Source: Archaeoglobaceae archaeon | Lineage (GTDB): Archaea; Halobacteriota; Archaeoglobi; Archaeoglobales; Archaeoglobaceae | Assembly: GCA_027064525.1 (NCBI GenBank) | Contig: JAMOPJ010000008.1 | Location: forward strand, 62,001-126,000 | Direction of reading: 5' to 3' | DNA length: 64,000 nt | In this document: in pieces, positions 1,255 through 26,756 of the stretch | How the letters are laid out: each line of letters begins with the position of its first letter | Position numbering within the stretch: position 1 is the stretch's first letter | Made by a program: the position numbers and the translations under genes | The notes under the pieces: model-generated | The model's database searches: none | Seen by the model: the letters and a program-made list of their open reading frames with translations, nothing else | What the model was told of the DNA's origin: nothing

Positions 1255-3651
1255 ATGGTAATGGATCTCAGAGAGGGTTTTATCGTTCTCGATGACATGA
1301 GGAATGTCACGATTCGAATAGGGAAGATCGTCGAAGAGGATGAATGGGAACCGATGGGACCAACGCCGAGACCGCACATCCTCGACCTGAGATACTGGGA
1401 TCAAAAGCTCTTGGAGAGATACGAACCATTCTATGCTCCAATGCAAGATTTCTGTAACCTCTGCACGATGGGGCCTTGTGAGCTGTCGCACAACAAGGAA
1501 GGAGCCTGTGGTCTCGATCTGAAAACTCAGAAGGCAAGACTTGTGGTTTTAGCATGTTTAATCGGAGCATCATCTCATACCGCTCACGCGAGGCACTTGG
1601 TTCACTACTTAATTGAGAAATTTGGGCCAGATTATCCGATCGACTTGGGGAGCAACGTGAACATCGAAGCTCCAAACATAAGGCTCGTTTTCGGAATAAG
1701 GCCAAAGACGATCGGAGATTTAGAGCAGGTTTTGGATTACGTCGAGCAAGAGCTTGTCAGGGTTCTTCACACCACTCATACGGGCCAAGAGGAGAGCTAT
1801 CTGGACTATGAGTCCAAAGCCTTGCACGTCGGAATGCTCGACCACGTTGCCATGGAAGTGGCAGATATAGCTCAGATTGTGGCGTTCAACTATCCGAAGG
1901 GAGATCCTGACGCTCCGCTAATAGAGACCGGATTCGGAGTTCTCGACCCGAACAAGCCCGTAATTCTTGTGATCGGACACAACATCCTTCCAGCGAGGAA
2001 CATCGTTGACTATTTGGAGGAGCACGGTCTTGAGGATGTGGTTGAAGTTGCTGGGCTCTGTTGCACGGCCATAGACACTACGAGATACGATCCGAAGGCG
2101 AAGATCGTCGGAACTTTGAGCTTCGAGCTTAGGGCTATAAGATCTGGAATTCCCGATGTTGTGGTTACGGATGAGCAGTGCATAAGAGCGGACACGCTGA
2201 GAGAGTGCTCAAAGATGGGAATCCCGGTTGTAGCCACTTCGGAAGCTTCCGCGAGGGGATTGCTGGACAGAACCCATGAGAATCCAGATGTAATCATCGA
2301 AGACCTCGTGAGCGGGAAGGCTAAGGGAGTTCTGATAAAGGATCCGGATAAAGTGGGCGAGATAGCCGTTAGGGTTGCACTTGAAATTAGAAAGAGAAGG
2401 GGTAAGAAGGAGCTCTTCATGAGCGAGGAAGAGCTTAAGGCGGAGGTTCAGAAGTGCACAGGTTGTGCGAGATGTGTGTTCTCATGTCCGCACAACCTCC
2501 GCATAGACGTTGCGATGCAGCATGCCAAGAAGAACGGAGACTTCAGCAAATTCAAAGAGATCGAGCCGAGTTGCATAGCTTGCGGGAGGTGTGAGCAGAG
2601 CTGTCCCAAGGGAATTAGGATCGTTGACGTCATAATGAAGTCGAGCTTGGATCAGCTGAAAGCGAAAACTGGCAAGAGCAGAGCCGGAAGAGGGCCTATT
2701 CAAGATGTCGAGATCAGGAAGGTTGGTCAGCCCATTGTTATGGGAACGATTCCCGGAGTAATAGCTCCGATAGGTTGTCCGAACTATCCGAGGGCGAGGG
2801 AAGAGTTAGGTCAGATCATCGAGGAGTTTCTCAAGAGAAGATACATCGTCGTCACTTCTGGCTGTCACGCAATGGATCTTGGAATGTATAAGGATGAGGA
2901 GGGCAGGAGCCTATACGAGAAGTATCCCGGAGTCTTCGATGCTGGAGGGCTTGTGAACGTCGGTAGCTGTGTTGCAAATTCGCACATAAGTGGAGCGGCG
3001 ATAAAAATAGCTGCGATATTCGCGCAGAGGCCTTTGAGAGGTAACTATGCGGAGATAGCCGATTACATATTGAACAGAATAGGAGCCGTAGGTCTGGCTT
3101 GGGGTGCATATAGCCAGAAAGCTGCAAGCATCGCGACGGGATTCAACAGGTTGGGAATTCCTGCTGTGGTTGGGCCTCACTCAGCGAAATACAGGAGGGC
3201 ATATATCGGAAAGTTCTGGAAGAAGGAGAAGTGGTGGGTTTACGACATAAAGTCGAGAAAGAAGATGCCGGTTGAACCAGCTCCAGACGCTTTGCTCGTT
3301 TGTGCCGAAACGAAGGAGGAAGCAATAGTTCAGCTCGCGAGGCTGTGCATAAGGCCTGCCGACACATACTTGGGAAGACAGATCAAGCTCACCCACTACA
3401 TAGAGCTCAGCCAGAAGTATTTGGGTTGCTTGCCGGATGACTGGCACCTATATGTTAGGACGGAGGCAGATCTTCCTGTGAAGATGAGGGATCAGCTTTT
3501 GAAGATTCTTGAGGATGAGCACGGCTGGAAGATCGACTGGAAGAACAAGAAGATACTTGAAGGCCCGATAAGACCGTATGATGCCGGATTCAATCCAACG
3601 CTTGTCGAACACGTTTACGAGAAATACACGGGGGAGAAGATAGTGAGGTGA
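1255..3651 (+). CDS. cdhA: CO dehydrogenase/acetyl-CoA synthase alpha subunit (CdhA)
   Basis: Nickel CO dehydrogenase subunit of the archaeal CODH/ACS complex. It interconverts CO2 and CO at the Ni-Fe-S C-cluster and passes electrons to ferredoxin. The protein is 798 residues, the full family length. Cys67, Cys70, Cys75 and Cys85 form the N-terminal Fe-S motif. Two ferredoxin-type CxxCxxCxxxCP motifs follow at Cys401-411 and Cys440-450; these are present in archaeal CdhA but not in bacterial CooS. The VEVAGLCCTAID and GSCVANSHISGAA segments fit the C-cluster region. An in-frame ATG at 1261 is an alternative start. The gene overlaps the SD region of cdhB, so translation is probably coupled. 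Confidence 0.97.
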   Translation: MVMDLREGFIVLDDMRNVTIRIGKIVEEDEWEPMGPTPRPHILDLRYWDQKLLERYEPFYAPMQDFCNLCTMGPCELSHNKEGACGLDLKTQKARLVVLACLIGASSHTAHARHLVHYLIEKFGPDYPIDLGSNVNIEAPNIRLVFGIRPKTIGDLEQVLDYVEQELVRVLHTTHTGQEESYLDYESKALHVGMLDHVAMEVADIAQIVAFNYPKGDPDAPLIETGFGVLDPNKPVILVIGHNILPARNIVDYLEEHGLEDVVEVAGLCCTAIDTTRYDPKAKIVGTLSFELRAIRSGIPDVVVTDEQCIRADTLRECSKMGIPVVATSEASARGLLDRTHENPDVIIEDLVSGKAKGVLIKDPDKVGEIAVRVALEIRKRRGKKELFMSEEELKAEVQKCTGCARCVFSCPHNLRIDVAMQHAKKNGDFSKFKEIEPSCIACGRCEQSCPKGIRIVDVIMKSSLDQLKAKTGKSRAGRGPIQDVEIRKVGQPIVMGTIPGVIAPIGCPNYPRAREELGQIIEEFLKRRYIVVTSGCHAMDLGMYKDEEGRSLYEKYPGVFDAGGLVNVGSCVANSHISGAAIKIAAIFAQRPLRGNYAEIADYILNRIGAVGLAWGAYSQKAASIATGFNRLGIPAVVGPHSAKYRRAYIGKFWKKEKWWVYDIKSRKKMPVEPAPDALLVCAETKEEAIVQLARLCIRPADTYLGRQIKLTHYIELSQKYLGCLPDDWHLYVRTEADLPVKMRDQLLKILEDEHGWKIDWKNKKILEGPIRPYDAGFNPTLVEHVYEKYTGEKIVR

Positions 3652-3656
3652 TAATC

Positions 3657-4196
3657 ATGAGCCTTGATAAGGTGTTTGAGAAGGTTACGAGGATCTTCAA
3701 TCCAGCCGATGTCCAAGCGAGCAAGTGTGCGAGCATAATAAAGCCGAAAGTGGTTGCTACGATGATCAAAAAAGCTAAACGGCCGATACTCATAACTGGA
3801 GGTAAGCTTTTGGAGGATGAGAGGATCGTCGATTTTGTTGTTAAGCTTCACGAGAAGACCGGAATAGAGATATTGACAACCGGTGGCTCGAGCAAGCCTC
3901 TGATTGAGAGGGGAATAAAGCCTCTCGCTACTGTATTCACGCTCCACTACATCACCCAATACCTCCTCGATCCCAATTGGAAGGGATTCGATGGTAAAGG
4001 TAACTATGATCTGGCTGTGTTCGTTGGATTTACAACTCCATACTACCTTTCGAGGATGCTGTCAGCTTTGAAGCACTTCTCAAAGGTCAACACGATTTCG
4101 ATATGTGAATACTACCAGCCTCATGCCAAGTTTAGCTTTCCCAATCTAAATGAGGACATGTATTATGAGGCTCTGAACATGATATTAGAGGTGTGA
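3657..4196 (+). CDS. cdhB: CO dehydrogenase/acetyl-CoA synthase epsilon subunit (CdhB)
   Basis: Small non-metal subunit that binds CdhA in the alpha2-epsilon2 unit. In this family it is thought to help pass electrons to flavin or ferredoxin. About 180 residues with a DHS-like Rossmann fold: RPILITGGKLLEDERI, SSKPLIERG, and YLSRMLSALKHFS near the C-terminus. I chose the ATG at 3657 because GAGGTGAT (3645-3652) is a strong Shine-Dalgarno 4 bases upstream; a GTG at 3648 is also in frame and overlaps the cdhA stop. A divergent paralogue carrying a ferredoxin insertion lies at 26040-26756. Confidence 0.96.
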   Translation: MSLDKVFEKVTRIFNPADVQASKCASIIKPKVVATMIKKAKRPILITGGKLLEDERIVDFVVKLHEKTGIEILTTGGSSKPLIERGIKPLATVFTLHYITQYLLDPNWKGFDGKGNYDLAVFVGFTTPYYLSRMLSALKHFSKVNTISICEYYQPHAKFSFPNLNEDMYYEALNMILEV

Positions 4197-4199
4197 AGG

Positions 4200-5696
4200 A
4201 TGGTTGAGAGGAAGAAGATCGAGATTCCCGAAGGGAAGAAGGTCAAGGTCAGCGTTGGTGAAGAGGATTTCCCATTCGAGATATCACCGATGTTTGAGGG
4301 AGAGAGAATAAGGAAAGGAGACATGTTTGTAGAGTTAGCCGGCCCGAAGACGATGGGATTTGAACTCGTCATTTCACTTCCTCCCGATCAGGTTGAGGAC
4401 ATGAAAGCTACGCTCATCGGAATCGATCTCGATGAGATGGAAGAAGGGGGGAGATATCCGTTTGCGATGATATACTACATAGCTGGCGAAAAGATCGACC
4501 CTGACATAGAGCCGGTGGTTGAGAGGAGAAACCACGAGTTCCAGAACTACATCGAGGGCTACATGCACATAAATTCGAGGGACACGATTTGGATCAGAAT
4601 CGGCAAGAACGCCGTCAAGAAGGGTCTGAAGAGTCTGTTGCAGATAGCCAAAGCGACGATGATGCTTTACAAGAACGAGATGCCTTTCATCGAGAAGATC
4701 GAGGCTGTTTATATTACAGACAAGGAGCTTGTGGAGAAATTGCTGAACGAGCTCGCGAGGCCGATTTACGAGGAGAGAGATGCCAGAGTTGAGCAGTTGC
4801 ACGATGAGGATGTTGATGAATTTTACTCGTGCACCCTCTGCCAGAGCTTCGCTCCTACGAACGTCTGCATAATAAGCCCAGATAGACCTTCGTTGTGTGG
4901 TGCGATAACGTGGTTCGACGGAAGGGCTGCAGCGAAGGTAGATCCTGAGGGTCCTAATAGGCCAGTTCCGAAGGGAGAGTGCATAGATCCAATTGCTGGA
5001 GAATATACCGGCGTCAATGAGTTTGCGAAGCAGGAGAGTGGAGGAAGCGTGGAGAGAGTTAAGCTTCACAGCTTCTTCGATCATCCGCACACGTCATGTG
5101 GATGTTTCGAGGTCATAGGCTTCTACATGCCAGAAGTTGACGGAATAGGATTCGTTCACAGAGGTTACCCACATCCGGCCCCTAACGGGCTACCGTTCTC
5201 AACGATGGCAGGGCAGACGGGAGGAGGTAAGCAGGTAGTCGGATTCTTGGGCATAGGTATGGCATACTTCAGGAGCAAGAAGTTCCTCCAAGCGGACGGA
5301 GGATGGTATAGAGTTGTCTGGATGCCGAAGGAGCTTAAGGAAAAGGTTCTGAAATACATCCCGGAGGAGATGAGGGACAAGATCGCTACGGAGGAAGATG
5401 CGAAGACTATCGACGAGCTTAAGGAGTTTCTGAAGAGAGTGGATCATCCCGTTGTTAAGGGAGTCGTTAGGCCAGTTGACGGGAAGAAGATCACGGATGG
5501 CTGGGTTGAGGAGAAGGAAAAAGAGGTGATCGAAGAAAGAGTCGAGGAGGCACCAGCTGAAGAAGCTCCAGCCATTGCATTTCCGACGCAGATTCCACAG
5601 GTTTCCACAGCGCCGACCGTAAGGCTGATCATAAAGAACGCCAAGATCTACATCGATAAGGTGGTAGTCCGAAAGGTTGAAGAGATGAAACGCTGA
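4200..5696 (+). CDS. cdhC: Acetyl-CoA synthase beta subunit (CdhC)
   Basis: Catalyses assembly and cleavage of acetyl-CoA from CO, a corrinoid methyl group and CoA at the nickel A-cluster. The 498-residue form lacks the N-terminal CODH-binding domain of bacterial AcsB, as is normal for archaea. All A-cluster cysteines are visible: Cys211, Cys214, Cys223, Cys233 and the CGC pair Cys300/Cys302. A Glu/Ala/Pro-rich linker (about 435-470) leads to a short basic tail, VRLIIKNAKIYIDKVVVRK. The tail matches a separate 30-codon ORF that starts 9 bases downstream. The gene starts 3 bases after cdhB. Confidence 0.97.
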   Translation: MVERKKIEIPEGKKVKVSVGEEDFPFEISPMFEGERIRKGDMFVELAGPKTMGFELVISLPPDQVEDMKATLIGIDLDEMEEGGRYPFAMIYYIAGEKIDPDIEPVVERRNHEFQNYIEGYMHINSRDTIWIRIGKNAVKKGLKSLLQIAKATMMLYKNEMPFIEKIEAVYITDKELVEKLLNELARPIYEERDARVEQLHDEDVDEFYSCTLCQSFAPTNVCIISPDRPSLCGAITWFDGRAAAKVDPEGPNRPVPKGECIDPIAGEYTGVNEFAKQESGGSVERVKLHSFFDHPHTSCGCFEVIGFYMPEVDGIGFVHRGYPHPAPNGLPFSTMAGQTGGGKQVVGFLGIGMAYFRSKKFLQADGGWYRVVWMPKELKEKVLKYIPEEMRDKIATEEDAKTIDELKEFLKRVDHPVVKGVVRPVDGKKITDGWVEEKEKEVIEERVEEAPAEEAPAIAFPTQIPQVSTAPTVRLIIKNAKIYIDKVVVRKVEEMKR

Positions 5697-23904: not shown

Positions 23905-25212
23905 ATGGCGCTGGAAGCTTTGAAAGATGTAATAAAGAAGATTACACGATCATCCACGATCGACAAAAAGTTTGTTGAGGAGATAGTTAGAGATATTCAA
24001 AGAGCTTTGATTAAAGCTGACGTTAACGTTAGGCACGTTAAAGAGATAACCGATGCGATAAAGAAGAGAGCTTTGAGCGAGGATATAATCCATGGATTAA
24101 ATCCGAGGGAGCACATAATCAAGATCGTTTACGAAGAGTTGATGCGTGGGATCGGCGAGGGACTCGAAATCCCGCTGAAGAAATCGAAGATCATGCTCGT
24201 TGGACTTCAGGGGAGTGGTAAAACCACTACAACTGCAAAGCTGGCCAAATACTTCAAAGATAAGGGTTTGAGAACAGCCGTAGTGTGTGCGGACACTTGG
24301 AGACCAGCCGCTTACGAACAGCTGAGGCAGTTGGCCGAAGCTTACAAGATAGCGTTCTACGGCGAGAAGGAGACAAAGGATGCAGTTCAAATAGTCAAAA
24401 ACGCCCTCCAAAATCTCAGGGATTACGACATGATAATAATCGACACCGCCGGAAGGCACGCCTTGGAGAAGGAGCTCATAGACGAGATGATTGAGATAGC
24501 GAAGGTTGCGAATCCCGATTACAAGCTTCTGGTTTTGGACGCTGCGATAGGTCAACTTGCGAGTAAGCAGGCTAAGGCCTTCCACGAGGCGATAGGCATA
24601 GACGGCATAATCATAACGAAGTTCGATGGAACCGCTAAGGGTGGTGGCGCTCTTTCAGCTGCAAGGGAGATCGGAATTCCCATAGCGTTCATCGGAACCG
24701 GTGAGAAGGTCGAAGACTTCGAAAAGTTCGATCCTGCAGGATTCGTTTCAAGGCTGTTGGGAATGGGAGACATAAGGGCGTTGCTTGAAAAGATCGAGAG
24801 GGTAACGAAGGAGGATGAATTGGATCCGGAAAAGTTCCTCAAGGGGACATTCACGCTCAAGGATATCTACAAGCAGATAGAAGCTATGCAGAAGATGGGC
24901 CCGATTAGCAAAATCTTCGAGCTACTTCCGTTCGGTTTAAGCCTGAAGGTGGATGAGAACGTCATGGAGATGACTCAAGAGAAGATGAAGAAGTTCAAGG
25001 TTATAATGGATTCCATGACCGAGGAGGAGTTGCTTAACCCCAAGATAATCGACTCCTCGAGGATAAGGAGAATAGCGATAGGGAGCGGAACTACTCCGCA
25101 AGATGTGAAGGAATTGCTGAGATACTACAAGACGATGAAGAACGTCATGAAAAAGATGAAGAAGCTTGAAAAGGGAAGATTGCCCTTCAAGTTGCCAAAG
25201 TTAGGGTTCTGA
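23905..25212 (+). CDS. srp54: Signal recognition particle 54 kDa protein
   Basis: GTPase subunit of SRP, 435 residues. The N domain is helical (about 1-95). G1 is GLQGSGKTT (100-108), DTAGR is G3, TKFDGTAKGGGALS is G4 and G5-side, and FIGTGEKVEDFEKFDP follows. The methionine-rich M domain (about 300-435) ends in a basic tail KKMKKLEKGRLPFKLPK. It binds signal peptides and 7S RNA and docks to FtsY. A TATA-like TTATATCTT (about 23874-23882) lies about 25 bases before the ATG. The next gene overlaps it by one base. Confidence 0.97.
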   Translation: MALEALKDVIKKITRSSTIDKKFVEEIVRDIQRALIKADVNVRHVKEITDAIKKRALSEDIIHGLNPREHIIKIVYEELMRGIGEGLEIPLKKSKIMLVGLQGSGKTTTTAKLAKYFKDKGLRTAVVCADTWRPAAYEQLRQLAEAYKIAFYGEKETKDAVQIVKNALQNLRDYDMIIIDTAGRHALEKELIDEMIEIAKVANPDYKLLVLDAAIGQLASKQAKAFHEAIGIDGIIITKFDGTAKGGGALSAAREIGIPIAFIGTGEKVEDFEKFDPAGFVSRLLGMGDIRALLEKIERVTKEDELDPEKFLKGTFTLKDIYKQIEAMQKMGPISKIFELLPFGLSLKVDENVMEMTQEKMKKFKVIMDSMTEEELLNPKIIDSSRIRRIAIGSGTTPQDVKELLRYYKTMKNVMKKMKKLEKGRLPFKLPKLGF

Positions 25213-26045
25213 TGAAGGTTCTTATAGTCGGATTGCTACCCTTCGACTCGGGCAAGACCAGCTTGGCACTCTCTTTGATCGCCGAAGCTTTGGATAGAGG
25301 AATAGATATCGGCGTAGTCAAGCCAATAACGGCATTCAGCGGGTGGTATCAATATTCGAGCGTTCAGAGAAGCATGAAATTCGGAAAGCTCGTTGGAGAA
25401 GACATATACAGACTTCACAGCCATGCCAGAAGTGAAGATCCGATAGAGCTCGAAAGTCCCGTCGTTCTGATGCACATGCCACCTGATCCCGATAGGGTCG
25501 ACTGGCAGAGCTCGTTTTATACAGCCCTCAATCTGAATGAGCAGATAATAACCCTGAGAATTACCGATCCTAACGGAACGAATCACTACTACCTTCCGGC
25601 AAACCTGGGAAGACTTACGGGTGTTATGAGAGATCTGGCGTTAAAACTGATAGAATCACTTAAGCCTGCTCCAAAGGAGATCCACGACGTAGACGACATC
25701 CTTCTTAACTTGGGCAAGTTCGCCGACGGTAGCGTAGAGTTGATCTCTTCCAACCACGAGATAACAATCGTAGAATCCTACAACAACGCATCTGCTCCAA
25801 CTCAGAGCTCCCTAAAAGCAGATATAGTTCTGATGGTAGCCCCCTCCAAAGTTGCGATATACAACGGAGAGAGATACAGAAAAGCTGTTGAACTTCTTCT
25901 AAAACCTCCTTGGCTGATTTCAAGCGAGGAAGTTGCGTCTTTGCTCAAACCGATAAAGACCATTGAAACTAAGCCAACAATAGATAAGAGTGGAGCTTGG
26001 GCTGAAGGTTTGCTCGATGAGACGTTGAGGTTTGGGAAGTTATAG
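25212..26045 (+). CDS. P-loop NTPase of unknown role
   Basis: A 277-residue protein starting VLIVGLLPFDSGKTSLALSLI, a P-loop-like GxxxxxSGKTS with an insertion that looks like the archaeal predicted ATPase/GTPase family linked to KTI12 or dethiobiotin-synthetase-like folds. The GIDIGVVKPITAFSGW stretch resembles the substrate-binding loop after Walker A in that fold. No reliable function is known. The ATG overlaps the srp54 stop (TGATG), and the gene converges with the CdhB paralogue by 6 bases. Confidence 0.6.
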   Translation: MKVLIVGLLPFDSGKTSLALSLIAEALDRGIDIGVVKPITAFSGWYQYSSVQRSMKFGKLVGEDIYRLHSHARSEDPIELESPVVLMHMPPDPDRVDWQSSFYTALNLNEQIITLRITDPNGTNHYYLPANLGRLTGVMRDLALKLIESLKPAPKEIHDVDDILLNLGKFADGSVELISSNHEITIVESYNNASAPTQSSLKADIVLMVAPSKVAIYNGERYRKAVELLLKPPWLISSEEVASLLKPIKTIETKPTIDKSGAWAEGLLDETLRFGKL

Positions 26046-26756
26046 ATTCTCCAATACTTCTTCCAACGCTTTGTAGTATATCTCCCCGCCCTTTTTGAAC
26101 TCTATCGCATCGTATGGGCAGGAATCCGCACAGAAAACGTATTCACATTCCCTACAAAATCTCGCATCGACTACGAGCTTTCTTCCGTTGCTAACTATGG
26201 ACTGACACTCTATCGCATTATAGGGGCAGACTATGACACAGTTTCCGCATCCAATGCAAAGCTCTTCTCTAACGATCAGAGCGAAGTCTGTAAGGCTATA
26301 TTTGGCGTTCGGCTGATAGAACTCGTCTATGCTAACTGTGGTAATATCTGAGAAGTGCTTCAATGCTGAGAGCATTCTCGAAAGGTAAGCTGGCGTAAAT
26401 CCCATGAAAAGGACGAGATCATAACTACCTCTCCCATCGAATCCCATCCAAGACTCATCCAGTAGATACTGGGTCAGATAGTGAAGAGATCTTGAAGCAA
26501 AGATCGGCTTGGCACCATTCTCAATTAGTGGCTTGCTCGAAGCTCCGGTGGCGATGATCGGAATCCCCTTTTTTTGGAATCTAATGGCATAATGGACCAG
26601 TTTCCCATCTTCAAGTAGCTTACCGCCAGTGATTAAAACGGGTCTCCTCGCCGACCTTATCAGATCCGCGATGACCTTGGGTTCAACAGCAAATCCCTCT
26701 CTACACTGCCTATCCGATATTTCGTGCTTGGGAATGTAATACACTGTTTCGATCAT
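26040..26756 (-). CDS. CdhB-like protein with inserted 2[4Fe-4S] ferredoxin domain
   Basis: Protein of 238 residues. Residues about 28-158 follow the CdhB of this genome closely (RPVLITGGKLLEDG, SSKPLIENGAKP, YLTQYLLD, YLSRMLSALKHFS, then DEFYQPNAKYS). At residue 159 about 64 residues of a bacterial-type ferredoxin are inserted: Cys167-170-173-177 (CIGCGNCVIVCP) and Cys201-204-209-213. The CdhB C-terminal helix (YYKALEEVLENL) then resumes. The insertion is therefore internal, not a fused tail. No cdhA is adjacent. I infer an electron-transfer partner for a CODH or another Ni/Fe oxidoreductase. Confidence 0.82.
   Translation of the reverse strand: MIETVYYIPKHEISDRQCREGFAVEPKVIADLIRSARRPVLITGGKLLEDGKLVHYAIRFQKKGIPIIATGASSKPLIENGAKPIFASRSLHYLTQYLLDESWMGFDGRGSYDLVLFMGFTPAYLSRMLSALKHFSDITTVSIDEFYQPNAKYSLTDFALIVREELCIGCGNCVIVCPYNAIECQSIVSNGRKLVVDARFCRECEYVFCADSCPYDAIEFKKGGEIYYKALEEVLENL

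Follow-up and report, generated by a model that had tools for sequence, protein, structure and literature searches.

An Archaeoglobaceae CODH epsilon-subunit variant with an inserted 2[4Fe-4S] ferredoxin, paired with a FwdB type

In the genome of an archaeon of the heat-loving family Archaeoglobaceae, a gene remote from cdhA encodes a protein, designated Fd-CdhB, which combines the fold of CdhB, the epsilon subunit of the ancient CO-converting enzyme CODH, with a 2[4Fe-4S] ferredoxin. The locus raises the question whether this ferredoxin lies inside the epsilon fold or is attached to its end, and which enzyme such a subunit would serve. The window, i.e. the whole stretch of DNA that was analysed, has a length of 64,000 nucleotides and contains the following features:

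26040..26756, minus strand: Fd-CdhB gene, CdhB/epsilon fold with inserted 2[4Fe-4S] ferredoxin, 238 aa (open reading frame, profile matches, homologues)
26286..26756, minus strand: Fd-CdhB residues 1-157, N-terminal leader and CdhB (Rossmann-like) core (TIGR00315 over 18-158, pLDDT)
26091..26285, minus strand: Fd-CdhB residues 158-222, inserted 2[4Fe-4S] ferredoxin with Cys 167/170/173/177 and 201/204/209/213 (Fer4/Fer4_7, invariant Cys)
26043..26090, minus strand: Fd-CdhB residues 223-238, returned CdhB C-terminal helix (tail scoring, AlphaFold models)
1255..3651, plus strand: cdhA, sole copy in the genome and presumed docking partner of Fd-CdhB (TIGR00314, 1328.9 bits)
3657..4196, plus strand: ordinary cdhB (epsilon) of the same genome, in the CODH/ACS operon (TIGR00315, 213.8 bits)
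4200..5696, plus strand: cdhC, the next CODH/ACS operon gene, which marks the cdhB-less site in G039, G040 and G043 (TIGR00316)

The Fd-CdhB frame starts with ATG and contains no internal stops. Residues 18-158 match TIGR00315 (cdhB) with 154 bits, against a cut-off of 101.2, and the PF02552 match agrees; the likeness to CdhB noted in the initial annotation is therefore retained, but it extends over about 140 residues instead of the 130 given there. The Fer4/Fer4_7 models match residues 161-217 and, together with the positions of the cysteines, bear out the 2[4Fe-4S] ferredoxin with eight Cys at 167-213 that had been proposed. As in 2[4Fe-4S] ferredoxins generally, the cysteines form two motifs of the CxxCxxCxxxC type, the second of which reads CxxCxxxxCxxxC in the genus of the window (g1) and CxxCxxCxxxC in genus g12 and in G020. 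Convergent with Fd-CdhB, and overlapping its 3′ end by 6 bp, lies a gene for a P-loop protein of 277 aa (25212-26045) without a Pfam or NCBIfam match, a homologue of which is found at the same place in all four other genomes of the window's genus.

Plain archaeoglobal CdhB ends in ...YQPHAKFSFTNLTKNKEMHYKMLEEVLENL (G021), and the corresponding part of Fd-CdhB reads ...YQPNAKYSLTDFALIV[ferredoxin]EFKKGGEIYYKALEEVLENL; the plain CdhB tails thus realign after the ferredoxin, and the Fd-CdhB tail EIYYKALEEVLENL matches the last helix of the plain proteins, e.g. EMHYKMLEEVLENL in G021. With a position-specific score built from 27 plain CdhB tails, the returned helix is the best-scoring place in all 12 Fd-CdhB homologues (shuffle p 5e-5 to 0.009, and below 0.0005 in ten of them), with 7.7-24.7 bits as compared with at most 0.4 bits in 63 other ferredoxin tails. 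An AlphaFold2 model of Fd-CdhB, built with 12 sequences, has a mean pLDDT of 74.6, with values of mostly 84-96 in the core (residue 21 to ~160), low values at residues 12-18 and about 90-96 in the last helix (225-237), while the inserted ferredoxin is poorly modelled (35-40). Using VIA-align, the model is superimposed on 1ytl_A with a Z-score of 23.5 and an rmsd of 1.7 over 154/158 residues (model 19-238 to chain 17-174), and on 3cf4_G and 9c0r_C with Z-scores of 23.3-23.4; as a replicate, an AlphaFold model of the G040 homologue aligns to 3cf4_G with a Z-score of 21.7 (chain 2-170, model 6-231). In both models the tail helix occupies the position of the last CdhB helix in the solved epsilon subunits. 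Because the models align over the whole epsilon fold around the insert, they place the ferredoxin in the loop ahead of its last helix, and the fold itself is complete. The tail score and the two models rule out a simple C-terminal ferredoxin fusion in a mis-called frame. They sustain the claim of the initial annotation, which had the C-terminal helix resume after the ferredoxin and had proposed a CdhB alignment, structure prediction and a genome search as checks.

The genome search, which covered 57 genomes of the order and, with profiles, 393 genomes of the phylum, recovers the complete arrangement in 12 genomes from three genera of the Archaeoglobaceae (the carriers), the only ones among the matches listed for the 393 genomes. 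These are all five genomes of g1, all six of g12, and G020, a complete single-contig genome of 1,901,943 bp. Among the matches listed for the 393 genomes, every other CdhB match stops short of the ferredoxin or a little way beyond its boundary, and the remaining loci checked in a contig scan for homologues are without the combined CdhB and ferredoxin architecture. All 12 homologues exceed the TIGR00315 cut-off, and the eight ferredoxin cysteines are invariant in them, contrary to the lack of conservation that had been named as a ground for abandoning the reading. Fd-CdhB is under strong purifying selection, with dN/dS values of 0.03-0.09 between g1 pairs and the closer g12 pairs (the remaining pairs being saturated) that are similar for the core and the ferredoxin; since it is conserved, it is a working protein. 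An artefact, be it a mis-called frame, an assembly join or a chance resemblance of the tail to CdhB, deserves practically no credence: nothing was found in its favour, and it is refuted by the recurrence of the architecture in 12 genomes, one of them complete and on a single contig, by the low dN/dS and by the invariant cysteines. In a tree of the CdhB domain, with the ferredoxin and tail left out and the CdhB-2 type as outgroup, Fd-CdhB forms one clade (100/98) among archaeoglobal CdhB, in which G020 adjoins g12. The architecture has a single origin. Fd-CdhB is a variant epsilon subunit, composed of known parts in a new arrangement; no description of an epsilon subunit with an inserted ferredoxin was found in the literature searched, the coverage of which is incomplete.

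The statement of the initial annotation that no cdhA lies nearby is right as regards the operon, cdhA and cdhB (1255-4196) being located 22 kb from Fd-CdhB on the opposite strand. Its suggestion that Fd-CdhB serves a second CODH finds no support and is ruled out by the presence of one cdhA per genome in all 12 carriers (in G044 it is present in two pieces, each at the end of a contig). G021 has, beside an intact cdhB, an additional cdhA interrupted by six internal stops (G021:C71:5803-8142), apparently a decaying CODH copy.

Ordinary cdhB has a different fate in carriers and non-carriers. In G039, G040 and G043, cdhA is followed by cdhC without cdhB, with 39-62 bp between the two genes, and a TIGR00315 search of these three genomes detects no ordinary cdhB elsewhere. 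The cdhB gene of G041 is internally deleted, that of G037 is truncated after about 107 codons, and the copies in G042 and G044 are short and fast-evolving. Deletion (3) or truncation (2) is thus counted in five of the 12 carriers and in none of 38 non-carriers, all with intact cdhB (Fisher p = 3.7e-4, a value that overstates independence because the carriers are related, the five losses representing by kinship at least three events, two in g12 and one in g1). The remaining non-carriers are G015, G016 and G034, which have no CODH, and four that were left out of this hand count owing to a contig end at the site or a partial gene. Most of the genomes are MAGs, G037, G039 and G043 being 81%, 76% and 68% complete, respectively. 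All CdhA cluster ligands, including those of the E/F domain, are kept in the cdhB-less genomes; a conserved CdhA signature of these genomes was considered and rejected, since the 29 columns that differ are mostly conservative. The simplest reading of the cdhB losses is that Fd-CdhB can stand in for CdhB. Because the carriers have a single cdhA and cdhB is lost or decayed only in carriers, Fd-CdhB probably replaces CdhB on CODH in some of them; as seven of the 12, including the genome of the window, retain ordinary cdhB, replacement is not general.

A second association concerns formylmethanofuran dehydrogenase. In seven genomes a FwdB gene adjoins Fd-CdhB on the same strand, at a distance of 11-101 bp. 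Orthologues of this type, FwdB2 (at least 65% identical), are found in exactly the 12 carriers and are absent from the other 45 genomes, where the next best match is 53%. In g1, FwdB2 is not adjacent to Fd-CdhB and forms a fwdD-fwdB pair elsewhere (L048, L049); in the genome of the window the two genes lie on different contigs. FwdB2 exceeds the TIGR03129 cut-off, with 588-627 bits, as a bona fide FwdB, and in it both the [4Fe-4S] motif and the metal-site Cys-His are preserved, residues which we take to have these roles from what is known of Fwd structures. The trees of Fd-CdhB and FwdB2 have the same shape, with the G020 copy grouping with g12 in both, whereas the plain CdhB of G020 groups with that of its genus mate G019; neither G018 nor G019, both genus mates, has the pair. 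Since the trees agree and the CdhB of G020 otherwise groups with its genus, both genes seem to have moved jointly. This close association with one type of FwdB fits the "other oxidoreductase" of the initial annotation, although FwdB was not named there.

The pairing could also mean that Fd-CdhB no longer belongs to CODH and now serves as a subunit of a formylmethanofuran dehydrogenase built on FwdB2, with its ferredoxin replacing FwdG, the 2[4Fe-4S] subunit adjoining FwdB, and its CdhB fold acting as a holder only. Adjacency in seven genomes, co-occurrence in all 12 and the seemingly joint move into G020 would be accounted for, as would the retention of ordinary cdhB in seven carriers and the location of Fd-CdhB outside the cdhA operon in 12 of 12. 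A profile over the Fd-CdhB ferredoxin does match 2[4Fe-4S] proteins that include FwdF and FwdG, but these no better than in a general 2[4Fe-4S] match. We consider this explanation unlikely, as it leaves the deletion or decay of cdhB only in carriers with intact cdhA unexplained, and as the complete epsilon fold is under purifying selection.

Two further links were examined and set aside. A connection with Mcr-based metabolism is ruled out, as mcrA has no match in any of the 12 carriers at E <= 1e-30; dsrA is matched in all 12 (partially in G044) and likewise in many non-carriers. The FwdF polyferredoxin has no or weak matches in g12 and one match in the window's genus, so that its loss shows no clear pattern. 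Concerning FwdB-related genes elsewhere, a FwdB/FwdD-like pair lies ahead of the CODH operon, together with a CdhE-type Fe-S plus ferredoxin protein (window, L052, L054, L055, L056, L064). The FwdB-like gene (51-1137) is cut by the window edge and has a full copy in a sister genome (L072:10532-11668). Its product keeps the N-terminal [4Fe-4S] motif but has lost the catalytic His, and the metal-ligand Cys is missing as well from both copies that were inspected in the window's genus (G036, G037); judged by these residues, it has the appearance of a catalytically dead FwdB that is retained alongside CODH.

In G020, a single region (G020:C1:953000-986000; L039 and L040) contains FwdA, FwdC, two FwdB, FwdD and Fd-CdhB, as well as HdrA2 with a MvhD-like domain, a polyferredoxin-FrhB protein, HdrB/C-like proteins and the CODH/ACS operon, and is possibly an electron-sharing cluster. 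With the HdrA2-MvhD-like fusion, the polyferredoxin-FrhB and HdrBC-like proteins and the CODH operon all inside a stretch of about 25 kb, it is conceivable that Fd-CdhB is an alternative epsilon handing its electrons to another acceptor (soluble ferredoxin or a HdrA2/FrhB-like protein), while the link to FwdB2 reflects shared descent only, since co-occurrence in two related genera could be one inheritance. An epsilon with such an acceptor would account for the loss of cdhB, but the linkage to FwdB2 would be left unexplained; the direct adjacency in seven genomes suggests that the pair moves as a unit, and the pair is found in G020 and not in its genus mates G018 and G019. We regard this alternative as distinctly improbable.

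In solved archaeal CODH complexes, epsilon covers and buries the D-cluster, and electrons are exchanged with the outside through the F-cluster of alpha, which lies exposed on the surface (PMC11474084). That CdhB itself moves electrons is therefore a weak premise; an epsilon with an invariant 2[4Fe-4S] domain is nevertheless most naturally read as the electron-outlet subunit that had been deduced from it. In Ca. Ethanoperedens, the 2[4Fe-4S] domain of CODH zeta is located at the alpha/epsilon intersection, takes electrons from the distal cluster of alpha and bridges it to F420 reductase, and the Fwd of this organism carries a similar module, FwdI (PMC11493965).

On balance we favour, with moderate confidence, the reading that Fd-CdhB is an alternative CODH epsilon subunit with a tethered electron outlet or inlet, the next station of which is most likely FwdB2. 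Its CdhB fold would dock on CdhA as ordinary CdhB does and, by analogy with zeta, the ferredoxin would be held close to the F-cluster port of CODH. Tethered near the exposed F-cluster of CdhA, it would substitute for a diffusing ferredoxin. The next electron station, proposed because of the genomic pairing, would be formylmethanofuran dehydrogenase via FwdB2, which would give the archaeal acetyl-CoA pathway a common electron route for its two CO2-handling enzymes; Fd-CdhB probably exchanges electrons with FwdB. We infer for this protein that it binds CdhA, transfers electrons and contacts FwdB2, and likewise its cluster content and the direction of flow. It is possible, but rather doubtful, that Fd-CdhB is a bifunctional adaptor which physically links CdhA to FwdB2, such that the carbonyl and methyl branches of the Wood-Ljungdahl pathway exchange electrons in one supercomplex.

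What the epsilon subunit does in CODH is not settled, and a natural cluster-bearing version, seemingly able to displace the ordinary one, makes this question directly testable. The apparent displacement in several carriers points to hard-wired instead of diffusing electron transfer, and Fd-CdhB would exemplify an electron carrier turned from a diffusing partner into a fixed wire by domain insertion. If Fd-CdhB does connect CODH with formylmethanofuran dehydrogenase, the two ends at which the archaeal acetyl-CoA pathway reduces CO2 would be in direct electrical contact, and this in archaea with genes for sulfite reductase (dsrA).

Among known systems, FwdG and FwdF (5T5M, 7BKB) have 2[4Fe-4S] units that are expected to face FwdB, and the Fd-CdhB gene adjoins a FwdB gene. 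However, Fd-CdhB is mostly CdhB fold and its ferredoxin is not specifically FwdG-like in sequence; with 238 aa, two thirds of which are CdhB fold, it is unlike a stand-alone FwdG, a 2[4Fe-4S] protein of ~80 aa. With the CODH zeta subunit of Ca. Ethanoperedens thermophilum Fd-CdhB would share a 2[4Fe-4S] bridge at the alpha/epsilon intersection, but zeta is a separate protein with the ferredoxin at the N-terminus of an F420 reductase, whereas the Fd-CdhB ferredoxin lies inside epsilon (PMC11493965); Fd-CdhB has no match to a FrhB-type F420-reductase domain. Compared with CdhB, the ACDS epsilon subunit (TIGR00315, PF02552; 1YTL, 3CF4, 9C0Q-T, 8RIU), which does not contain its set of eight cysteines, Fd-CdhB differs by the inserted 2[4Fe-4S] ferredoxin and the location of its gene remote from cdhA, but it shows the same whole fold, including the last helix, scores above the family cut-off and is nested among archaeoglobal CdhB in the tree.
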